Positions 17,866 to 22,366 of a DNA stretch of 64,000 nucleotides are shown here, one piece after another. Position 1 is the first letter of the stretch. The number at the start of each line of letters is the position of its first letter. Below the pieces are notes generated by a model. The model saw only the letters and a program-made list of their open reading frames with translations. It was not told where the DNA came from and did no database searches. Location: the NCBI RefSeq assembly GCF_014279775.1, contig NZ_CP047961.1:992001-1056000 (forward strand). Reading direction: 5' to 3'. Both the position numbers and the translations under genes were made by a program. The stretch is from Synechococcus sp. PROS-9-1 (GTDB taxonomy: Bacteria > Cyanobacteriota > Cyanobacteriia > PCC-6307 > Cyanobiaceae).

Positions 17866-18810
17866 GTGAAGTGGTTCATGGAGTTGGCTGGGATGGATCC
17901 GGTTCTTGGGCTCGGATTGTTTGCTTTCGCCCTTTTGCTGTTGGCCTTACCGCTCTCCTTCTGGAAAGTGAGCTCAGAAAAGACGTCTGGCCTTGTGACG
18001 CTGTTGATTGCAACGGCCAATCTGGCCTTGACGGCTCAACTCGTTCTTCGTTGGTGGCAGTCGGGGCATTTCCCGATCAGCAACCTCTATGAATCGCTGT
18101 GTTTCCTGGCTTGGGCATGCACGCTCACTCAGCTTTTAGTGGAGAGATCCTGGCCAACACCGATTGTTGCGGCGGCGGCGACCCCGATGGGCTTGGGTTG
18201 TATTGCTTTTGCGAGCTTTGCGCTTCCTGACCAGTTGCAAGAAGCATCCCCGCTTGTTCCAGCGCTGCGTTCTAGCTGGCTTGTGATGCATGTGAGCGTG
18301 ATCATGGTGAGTTACGCCGCCCTTTTAGTGGGCTCTTTGTTGTCAGTGGCTGTCTTGGTCACGGATCGTGGTCATGCCTTGGAACTGCGCAGCAGTTCGA
18401 TTGGAAGTGGAGGGTATCGGCGTGCTGCGCTAGCGACTCCACTAGGCAATGTGGGAAATTCTGAGGTTCAGTTGTCTTCCGTGCAGTTCACTCGGAATGA
18501 ACTATTGGACAGCCTTAGCTACCGCACGATTACGGTTGGCTTTCTGTTGCTCACCGTTGGGATCATTAGCGGCGCCGTGTGGGCGAATGAGGCCTGGGGT
18601 AGCTACTGGAGCTGGGATCCCAAAGAAACCTGGGCACTGATTTGCTGGTTGGTTTATGCGGCGTATTTGCATACACGTTTAAGCAGAGGTTGGCAGGGCA
18701 GGCGTCCTGCCCTGGTGGCTAGCGCAGGCTTAATTGTGATCGGTGTTTGTTATATCGGTGTGAATCTTCTTGGTATTGGTCTTCATAGCTATGGATGGTT
18801 CTTTGGTTGA
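17866..18810 (+). CDS. ccsA: Cytochrome c biogenesis protein CcsA
   Basis: System II haem-handling membrane protein that, with CcsB/Ccs1, attaches haem to c-type cytochromes in the thylakoid lumen and periplasm. The 314-residue product has about eight membrane helices. The haem-binding tryptophan-rich WWD motif is [13 protein letters not shown] at about residue 244. Conserved histidines flank it in LVMHVSVIM and [10 protein letters not shown]. The GTG at 17866 or the ATG at 17878 may start translation. It lies 30 bases after lptF in the same direction and ends a compact 5.5-kb gene run. Confidence 0.95.
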
Positions 18811-19249
18811 TTGACTTACCTTTGTAAGCCCTCTATTAAGTTGGCTCCTGTCTTTATTCTAAATCCCCTTATTGTTTTAATAGGCTTAACAGCTAGCCTG
18901 GCCAATAGTTCTTGCTAGATATATATTTATTGATGAAATTTGTTTGATAATCTCTTGTTTCTATTTTTACTTTTTAGGGCGTTTGGTTGTTGGTTTAATG
19001 TTTTTGTACTGATTTGAGCATGGGAATTGCAAATGGTTTTTCGCGTGACTTGGCTTGACGTCCAGTTTTCTACGTTGTCGCTCAAAGGATATGGGAATGG
19101 TGTCAACTAAATAGTATGAAATACTGACATCTTCAGACCCGCACTCAATTCAACCGTGCTAGTTGATACCAGGTCGCTTGATCGACATATTCATTTAATC
19201 AATTGGACGCCAACTCTTGTTAAGATGACTATGTTCTTATTTGCTCATC
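18811..19249. other. AT-rich intergenic stretch after ccsA
   Basis: No supported gene in about 440 bases. The sequence is visibly richer in A and T than its neighbours and has stops in all frames. It marks the left edge of a gene-poor accessory patch that continues to about 21.6 kb. No clear intrinsic terminator for the lpt-ccsA run was found. Confidence 0.5.
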
Positions 19250-19444
19250 ATGACAGACATCACCGATAAGTACGAAAAGTTCAAAGTTCCTTACAGCACA
19301 AATGAAAAGCACTCATCTGATGAGTTTGATCCTAAGGAGAATGGTGGATTAGACAATCCAGCAAACCGTCACAATGACAAAGTTCTGGATGATATCTGTG
19401 ACACCCATCCTGGCTCCCCCATGTGCAAAGTCTTTGATTGCTGA
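19250..19444 (+). CDS. Small protein ending in a CP12-like C-terminal motif
   Basis: 64-residue acidic, Asn/Asp/Lys-rich protein with a probably disordered N-terminus. The C-terminus reads ICDTHPGSPMCKVFDC: C-x8-C with Pro four residues after the first Cys, then a basic residue and an aromatic. That is the spacing and pattern of the C-terminal GAPDH-binding loop of CP12 (compare the typical form C-x3-P-x4-C-R-x-Y). The N-terminal PRK-binding AWD-VEEL element of full CP12 is absent. A role in redox-dependent binding of GAPDH or another Calvin-cycle enzyme is inference. ATG 19250 was chosen; a TTG at 19241 is in frame. No strong Shine-Dalgarno is visible. Confidence 0.7.
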   Translation: MTDITDKYEKFKVPYSTNEKHSSDEFDPKENGGLDNPANRHNDKVLDDICDTHPGSPMCKVFDC

Positions 19445-20420: not shown

Positions 20421-20654
20421 CTATACATAGCGTTCCATGAATTCAGATAGTGTTAGACCTTCTTTTTTGGCGGTATTGCAGCAATCCTTAAAAAGCTCAT
20501 CATCAGTTTCTGTACGCGCTAAGTCTCGAAATTGTTCGGAAGTGAGCTGCTCAGAATGATTATCTCTGTCGCGCATCAAATCCCATTTGTTACAGAGTGA
20601 ATCCACCATCTCTTTCCTAGAATAGGGAAGGTTGATTTCGTTCTGCTTTGCCAA
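20421..20654 (-). CDS. Small hypothetical protein
   Basis: 77 residues, charged and helical, with no recognised family. It starts with TTG at 20654, preceded on the minus strand by GGAG nine bases upstream, which supports real translation. Two adjacent cysteines (KDCCNTAKKEGLTLSEF) near residue 58 precede a C-terminal helix resembling the small Nif11-type helical leaders in general style (EGLTLSEFMERY), but the match is too short to assign. It lies in the AT-rich accessory patch. Confidence 0.5.
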   Translation of the reverse strand: MAKQNEINLPYSRKEMVDSLCNKWDLMRDRDNHSEQLTSEQFRDLARTETDDELFKDCCNTAKKEGLTLSEFMERYV

Positions 20655-20921: not shown

Positions 20922-21128
20922 CTAACTAGCAAGTGTGTCGCAACAATTCATGTCACCGTTCATGCGTGATCTCCATCTTCTTCGTTCATGGTGATCAAGC
21001 ATGGTACGACGAGATTTTTCAGCCTTAGCAAGGCGTTTGATCAATGCATCGGTGTCATGGGTTGAAAGCTCGCCATCTGAATCCCACTTCATGCAGAGCA
21101 CACCTTTCTTGGGAGTGTTGTTGTCCAT
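20922..21128 (-). CDS. Small hypothetical protein
   Basis: 68 residues from the ATG at 21128, which has GAGG seven bases upstream; an ATG at 21146 is also in frame. It is hydrophilic and strongly basic in the second half (SRRTMLDHHERRRWRSRM), ending in a double cysteine CCDTLAS. No family recognised and no membrane segment. The basic tail suggests nucleic-acid contact, which is inference only. Flanks are gene-poor. Confidence 0.45.
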   Translation of the reverse strand: MDNNTPKKGVLCMKWDSDGELSTHDTDALIKRLAKAEKSRRTMLDHHERRRWRSRMNGDMNCCDTLAS

Positions 21129-21607
21129 TGAATTTGCCTCATCCATTCAGTCACGGTATGCGCACACAAATCCTTTGCCATGGAGCAAACCTTAAGAAGT
21201 CTCGCTTGCGACACTTGCGACGGTTAACAATTTTGGATCCCGTGTCATGTACTTCAGGTTTGAGCTTTTCAGGGTTAGGGGTGGGTTCATGGCAGCCCTA
21301 CTTTTGGCTCCATTCTTGTGATCGGTTTTGCCACTTGCTTTTGCAATTCCAGTTCGGCTTAACCGCTGATGGAGGAGTTTTAGCCTGTGGGTTTATTTCA
21401 CTCTAGAACGAGTTCTAGCACTGGCGATGTACAGCAGCTTTGTAGATTATGGGATTAATTATTTAATAGAAGGAGTACTTGCAGCTCCCCCTCGCGCTCA
21501 CAATCTCCAACCAATCTCCGCCGATAGACCCCAAAAGTTAATCCATTAGCGGCTATTTAAATTCCTCAACGGCTTTCATATACTACATTTCTAGCCTGAA
21601 ATCCTAG
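21129..21607. other. Gene-poor stretch with a short perfect inverted repeat
   Basis: About 480 bases with open frames on the plus strand but no family features or start signals that I trust. It contains CTAGAAC-GA-GTTCTAG (21403-21418), a 7-bp inverted repeat with a two-base centre that could be an operator. The region marks the right edge of the AT-rich patch. Confidence 0.4.
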
Positions 21608-22366
21608 TCAGGAAGTTGCTGCCATTAGCTGCTCTTCTAACAGCATATTGAACTCAAACAATTGTTCGTCACTGAGTTGTTGTCTTGATGTTGCCCCTAG
21701 TTTTGATTGCAGGAATGTCTTTGCGCTTTCTTGATCCCATTTCAGTGTCGTGAGCATTTCGTCGCCTTGAGTGATCAAGTCGCTTCTGCGTAGAGGAGTT
21801 GGCACTGAAACTGCTTCAGCACCAATTTCGAAACTTTTAAGTTTATTCAGAAAGGAAACTAGATCGCTATATCTCGTTAATTTGTGCCTGCTTCCATGGC
21901 CATATGCGCGCTCTAAATACATTTGCTCATGTTCGCGGCTCCAACCGATGCGCTTGAGTTGTAGATCGATAGCTGTGAGCTCTTCGCTCCAATCATCTGG
22001 GTCTGTGGGTGCTTCGCTTGGTTCTGCGATTTCTTTTGGTTGTGATGCCTGATCTTGAGGTGGGGCCGATGGCGATGGTTCTGATTTGCTCTGCTCGTTT
22101 TTGCCCGCAGCTTGTTGTTCTCTTAGCTGTTTGGCATCGCCCATCTCTTGTCTTTTTATAGGCCTCTCCGCTGGTGGCTTTTGCTCAGGGGCTGCCTCTG
22201 CCTTCATGAGACGATCCATTAAGCGCTCTCGAGCACGGTCTTCTGCTTGCTCTGCATCAGCAGCCTCTCCTAATGAGCTGCCGAATTCCTGTTCGCCTTC
22301 GAAGCAGCTGACACGTACTACACATCGGTTGCTATCGATGTGGCAAATCTCGACCTTTGTCTTCAT
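21608..22366 (-). CDS. Hypothetical protein with two annealing-protein-type helical repeats
   Basis: 252 residues. An N-terminal mixed alpha/beta domain (residues 1-55, KVEICHIDSNRCVVRVSCFEG) leads into a low-complexity Glu/Pro/Gln/Lys linker (56-125). Two related helical modules follow at about 129-178 and 196-246. Each has the pattern LxxIGW/LKW...(Y/F)L...(G)xxSRxxLtxxxLxxFxxxLE, for example RIGWSREHEQMYLERAYG. This resembles the small helix-turn-helix tail found at the C-terminus of many phage and plasmid DNA-annealing or recombination proteins. Function is unknown; DNA binding is inference. It is divergently transcribed from the terC-like gene. Confidence 0.75.
   Translation of the reverse strand: MKTKVEICHIDSNRCVVRVSCFEGEQEFGSSLGEAADAEQAEDRARERLMDRLMKAEAAPEQKPPAERPIKRQEMGDAKQLREQQAAGKNEQSKSEPSPSAPPQDQASQPKEIAEPSEAPTDPDDWSEELTAIDLQLKRIGWSREHEQMYLERAYGHGSRHKLTRYSDLVSFLNKLKSFEIGAEAVSVPTPLRRSDLITQGDEMLTTLKWDQESAKTFLQSKLGATSRQQLSDEQLFEFNMLLEEQLMAATS

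Follow-up and report, generated by a model that had tools for sequence, protein, structure and literature searches.

The window analysed here, a 64,000-nucleotide stretch of the genome of Synechococcus sp. PROS-9-1, contains a forward-strand ORF (Table 1) whose conceptual translation is MTDITDKYEKFKVPYSTNEKHSSDEFDPKENGGLDNPANRHNDKVLDDICDTHPGSPMCKVFDC*. The ATG start is supported because homologues align from this codon while the DNA 5' of it diverges; the alternative TTG start in the ORF list adds only MLI. The protein ends in C-x3-P-x4-C-K-V-F-D-C, with C50 and C59 eight residues apart, a Pro at +4 (P54), and K, V, F, and D after the second Cys. It is acidic, with a pI of 4.7 and 14 D/E against 8 K/R residues. 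The window has 884 open segments that are 40 codons or longer, and only this ORF ends in the tail pattern, for which the chance expectation in the window, calculated from composition, is 1.6e-4. A reading of the DNA made from the letters alone (the sequence-only reading) had proposed a 64-residue acidic protein ending in a Cys pair with a Pro at +4 and a basic and an aromatic residue, and the translation, together with the conservation described below, confirmed it in each of these points.

The gene is flanked by a cytochrome c assembly gene (17866-18810) and a DUF3104 gene, and its DNA stretch occurs as a single copy in the genome. No Rfam match was found near the gene and no terminator-like site at it. 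The candidate promoter in Table 1 is a consensus match, and the number of such matches in the region is not above that in shuffled sequences. Downstream of the gene, three proteins have no Pfam match (20421-20654, 20922-21146, and 21608-22366, all on the minus strand); the families of at least the first and the third are kept across the six Synechococcus loci with shared synteny that were compared.

Table 1. Features of the 64-residue protein gene (window coordinates)
Feature	Position	Strand	Basis
Candidate promoter TTGATA-17-CATATT, overlapping ACATATTCATTTAA (19185-19198)	19163..19191	+	Consensus match only
CDS, 64 aa, phage-type CP12-tail mini-protein (phrog_2603 / T4-GC 63 family)	19250..19444	+	Translation, homologues, dN/dS
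Residues 7-28, conserved N-terminal module (K7, V13, N18-E19-x-H21, E25, D27-P28), absent from canonical CP12	19268..19333	+	(Nearly) invariant columns, host and phage
Residues 39-64, CP12-homologous tail, R40-H41 ... C50-x3-P54-x4-C59-K-V-F-D63-C64	19364..19441	+	Pfam profile 46-70; hhalign; PDB profile matches
Codon of C64, third cysteine, host subgroup A only; D/E here in phages and host subgroup B	19439..19441	+	Tally of terminal residues

The HMM search that the sequence-only reading had proposed returned CP12 (PF02672) as the sole Pfam match, at profile positions 46-70. The score of 13.2 bits is under the gathering cut-off of 22.7 bits, which was passed by the phage relatives P-SSM2_066 (28.9 bits) and RB11-B (22.9 bits), while others scored 19-21 bits; in all, 22 of 26 family members matched CP12, with a best E value of 9.8e-7. 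NCBIfam gave no match to the protein. Profile-profile comparison with marine CP12 gave E values of 7e-11 with the P-SSM2 bridge sequence and 1e-9 without it, in an alignment reaching the C terminus (hhalign 96-97%). In a profile search of the PDB, four of the five matches, at ranks 1-4, were CP12 chains, the top one being the 23-residue "CP12 polypeptide" of 3zdf; the single sequence retrieved nothing from the PDB. The CP12 feature CxxxPxxxxC with the following basic and aromatic residues is thus present in the window protein, which has no Cys before C50, and hence lacks the N-terminal Cys pair of CP12, and has no motif like the AWD_VEE core. The 88-aa phage protein P-SSM2_066 (L133:2875-3141) joins a phage-family N-terminus and a family-type middle to a CP12-like tail (LEIYCDNHPDADECKVYDD) that falls between the two tail types, so that it bridges the family and canonical CP12; this composite speaks for a common origin of the tails rather than convergence. 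Judged by sequence comparison, the tail of the 64-aa protein is homologous to the GAPDH-binding tail of CP12. It also contains conserved changes (HPGSPMCKVF) absent from the CP12s compared, and these suggest some shift in specificity.

Relatives were found in 22 of the 31 genomes of the window's genus and in five genomes of a second genus; among the genera sampled, no others carried them (2 of 59 in the family and 2 of 160 in the class). The host proteins form two subgroups, A, which includes the window protein and ends in FDC, and B, which ends in FDE or FDD and is about 62-72% identical to the window protein. The subgroups occupy different chromosomal loci, and none of the genomes examined carries both. 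The subgroup A site is common to five genomes of the window's genus, and a sixth shares the right flank only. In the second genus, subgroup A lies elsewhere, with much the same upstream element; indeed, ACATATTCATTTAA is largely retained 5' of subgroup A copies even at different chromosomal sites. Subgroup B (L161-L169, L172, and L173) has another neighbourhood, in several genomes including genes that look from their sequences like a short-chain dehydrogenase, a DoxX-like protein, and a glycosyltransferase, and one genome (G005) has two copies. In an incomplete genome, one contig carries a divergent 62-aa member with the tail CDTHPGSVECKVFDD (L153, G322:C26), which clusters with a phage sequence and could itself be phage DNA.

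Outside these two genera, the nearest relatives are found in T4-like cyanophages and not in the organism's own CP12. The search of phages and other Synechococcus that had been suggested thus found homologues in both. By tblastn, 110 phage isolate records were matched, 72 of them over most of the length, and the weakest of the 110 were canonical CP12s aligned via the tail; in IMG/VR, at least 135 contigs carried relatives. PHROGs separates the 64-aa family (phrog_2603) from canonical CP12 (phrog_627), both being listed there as "unknown function". The window protein matched phrog_2603 over its full length (1.5e-26, residues 2-63 on profile positions 14-75 of 76), while phrog_627 / T4-GC 337 was matched in the tail only (0.043), with no full-length match. 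Thus, the cyanophage proteins of T4-GC 63 / phrog_2603 (Syn1_235, S-CAM1 SXBG_00058, ACG-2014f Syn7803C7_32, and, more distantly, P-SSM2_066) are of the same family over the full length and have both the tail and the N-terminal module of the window protein, with 57-67% identity for environmental phage contigs. Their length is often 76 aa, with additional residues at the N-terminus, and their last two residues are DD or DE; the window protein, encoded on the chromosome, has DC there. In the tally of terminal pairs, host proteins had DC (10), DE (11), or DD (3), and phage proteins DD (34) or DE (23).

Gene neighbours vary among the phages and host loci. The tail gene is the sole CP12-like gene in eight isolate phages. 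On five IMG/VR contigs (L124, L121, L096, L076, and L094), the tail gene is followed after about 1-1.8 kb by a canonical CP12 gene on the same strand, and therefore some phages hold two CP12-type genes; the idea that the tail protein is a simple substitute for canonical CP12 in phages was ruled out by these contigs. In Syn1, S-RIM44, and Sf-FP1 (L126:3965-4195, L127:2965-3195, and L130:2965-3195), the tail gene and the start of a thymidylate synthase gene share 8 bp, or 47 bp as annotated in Syn1. Functional coupling to thymidylate synthase was rejected, because only 18 of the 84 phage loci have a member of that enzyme family after the tail gene.

Of the distinct family members, 80 have a CKVF tail, and every one of these ends in C-x3-P-x4-C-K-V-F-D-x. 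The spacing of the two Cys residues, on which the sequence-only reading had in part staked its proposal, was therefore invariant. Columns invariant in both host and phage alignments include N18, E19, H21, E25, R40, H41, D43, C50, D51, H53, P54, C59, K60, V61, and D63. Conservation from host to phage extends to residues 7-28 and 40-47, where the motifs NExHxxDE[FW]DP and RHxDK are kept beyond the tail. The description of the protein as carrying only the CP12 tail holds in that Pfam, profile-profile, and PDB comparisons all make the tail CP12-homologous; it does not hold in the sense of a bare tail. The median dN/dS was 0.07 in host subgroup B, 0.11 in phages, and 0.02 in the window's subgroup A, the last being a rough value with many synonymous sites near saturation. 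The 64-aa protein is under strong purifying selection. Its phage kinship and its relocation among chromosomal sites would fit a relic left by transfer, with no function in the host, but such an origin is scarcely credible: it is contradicted by the purifying selection in both host subgroups, the upstream element is conserved, and the gene is intact in every copy that is not interrupted by a contig end.

AlphaFold predicted no fold for the 64-aa protein (pLDDT 54, pTM 0.18), in keeping with its description as disordered, and this confidence is too low for a fold search or for judging the loop. In contrast, the CP12 of the same genome was predicted as a confident helical hairpin (pLDDT 91); a structure search with this CP12 as a control gave a weak top match to the GAPDH-CP12 complex 6ghr (E 0.07). 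On these models, the helical hairpin of CP12 is absent from the 64-aa protein. Because CP12 is predicted as a confident hairpin and the 64-aa protein as disordered, the N-terminal half of the latter is not CP12. No known motif in Pfam, NCBIfam, or PHROGs matched the N-terminal module. This module could make the protein an adaptor, in which the tail sits on GAPDH and NExHxxDE[FW]DP on another partner, so that GAPDH would be linked or placed and not simply inhibited. While a passive linker would not need the strong conservation of the module in host and phage, no known motif matches it and the varying gene neighbours suggest no partner, and we regard an adaptor, although it is the foremost alternative to the reading proposed below, as unlikely.

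A further alternative is that the protein is a full equivalent of CP12, bridging GAPDH and phosphoribulokinase (PRK) in spite of its short N-terminus, like the CP12 of S. elongatus without the N-terminal Cys pair. In some species, the ternary complex still forms with a CP12 that has no N-terminal Cys (PMC9406205), and the eight isolate phages mentioned above have no other CP12-like gene. However, the predicted absence of the hairpin speaks against it, canonical CP12 is also present in the organism's own genome and on several environmental phage contigs, and most related carriers likewise show tail-only matches to CP12. We therefore consider full equivalence improbable.

In the phylogenetic tree, all 23 host sequences formed one clade (support 99-100), which lay inside the phages in the full tree; the AU test, however, did not reject a single phage clade (p 0.49), and the tree has a very long root branch. 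The tree is compatible with transfer in either direction, and the distribution favours phage-to-host transfer over the reverse because the family is narrowly present in bacteria and widely present in phages. Since the nearest relatives outside the own genera lie in cyanophages, host and virus may, as this kinship suggests, have a small Calvin-cycle brake in common. One might instead suppose a rivalry for GAPDH between the chromosomal copy and the CP12-type proteins of phages, by which the takeover of carbon metabolism would be blunted. Membership of one family with the phage proteins and the patchy occurrence in the genus (22 of 31 genomes) would suit such an anti-phage use, but a protein whose tail is intact would be expected to inhibit GAPDH just as the phage proteins do, and thus to help the phage, and none of the neighbouring genes inspected was recognised as a defence gene. 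An anti-phage role is very improbable.

The genome encodes a Gap2-type GAPDH with a DRNP motif, which we take to correspond to R77, and, separately, its own CP12 (G000:C1, about 1817654-1817869). It has three GAPDH-family genes; the third (L191, G000:C1:1211684-1212154, minus strand) in which the motifs of the first two are missing, might be an additional target or serve a different purpose as a paralogue.

We propose that the 64-aa protein is a second, minimal CP12-like regulator of marine Synechococcus of the T4-like cyanophage type, and that it probably acts as a redox-gated, GAPDH-only brake on Gap2. In the oxidised state, a C50-C59 disulfide would close a CP12-type C-terminal loop, and this loop and the penultimate acid D63 would enter the coenzyme/catalytic cleft of the NADP-dependent Gap2, lowering its NADPH activity and saving NADPH. 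Because the N-terminal helical hairpin is absent, phosphoribulokinase would most likely not be recruited and the brake would act on GAPDH only; the N-terminal module may supply a second contact. We infer the formation of the disulfide, the binding and inhibition of Gap2, the non-binding of PRK, and the physiological timing. The roles envisaged in the sequence-only reading, in which the protein could sequester GAPDH or serve as a decoy or redox regulator, are likewise putative. A tail-only inhibitor of GAPDH is plausible because of precedents in the literature: the C-terminal extension of GapB inhibits GAPDH by closing its NADPH site, with the same disulfide and with a Glu at its terminus close to R77; in algal CP12, the penultimate Glu touches the equivalent Arg (PMC4436894). 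The tail of ADK3 interacts with GAPDH as well (PMC9406205). In Synechocystis CP12, the GAPDH-binding Cys pair matters more than the PRK pair, and PRK docks via the N-terminal part of CP12 (PMC9623430).

Several points count against the proposed brake: the Pfam score of the window protein under the CP12 cut-off, the conserved tail changes absent from the CP12s compared, the low confidence of the structure model, and, in subgroup A, a Cys in place of the final acidic residue. This last replacement is central to a further reading, a phage-derived Calvin-cycle brake of virus and host in one Synechococcus lineage, altered in subgroup A by C64 to a redox set point unlike that of CP12. Acquisition by one lineage would fit the single host clade with its several chromosomal sites. 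The terminal acid, which in CP12-type tails is near the NADP-binding Arg of GAPDH, would have given way to a third cysteine that forms either an alternative disulfide (C59-C64 or C50-C64) or a mixed disulfide with GAPDH. We hold this version to be doubtful.

Several known systems resemble the window protein in part. Its own marine picocyanobacterial CP12 and the phage CP12 of T4-GC 337 / phrog_627 are alike in the C-terminal ~25 residues with the Cys pair, and the former also misses the N-terminal Cys pair; in place of the predicted helical hairpin of CP12, the window protein has a different conserved, disordered module. The GapB extension and the ADK3 tail are cases of a CP12 tail that functions apart from the remainder of CP12 (PMC4436894, PMC9406205), but they are fused to enzymes, whereas the window protein is free and small with an N-terminal module of its own. 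By its description, Synpcc7942_0252 of S. elongatus is comparable, a second CP12-like protein beside CP12 that was recovered with Gap2 and Prk by AP-MS (PMC11804935). A review (PMC3906501) says that phage CP12s resemble the C-terminal part of CP12 only, and cites the cyanobacterial classes CP12-C and CP12-C(M) (Stanley et al. 2013), which have, like the window protein, the C-terminal Cys pair only. A 2010 study refers to "transaldolase and CP12" as T4-GCs 63 and 337 (PMC3037559). Because Syn1 talC is labelled T4-GC 239, Syn19 CP12 337, and both Syn1_235 and PSSM2_066 63, clusters 63 and 337 both appear to be CP12 clusters, and the phage members appear to have been filed as CP12 in that year; the family copy in one recent phage record, RB11-B, is annotated "carbon metabolic regulator". 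CP12 membership on the phage side is therefore not new, and the sequence-only reading, which had called such stand-alone forms little described, was too sweeping there. For the bacterial counterpart it stands, in that no description was found in the part of the literature that was searched.

Cyanophages are believed to use CP12 to switch off carbon fixation. If the phage-type, tail-only version is a normal, conserved gene of marine Synechococcus, uninfected cells would have a GAPDH-only brake apart from CP12, and the phage gene, labelled "hypothetical protein" in most of the records examined, would gain a testable function. Furthermore, the 64-aa protein would be a natural minimal construct for splitting GAPDH inhibition from PRK sequestration, for which Cys mutants are the usual approach.
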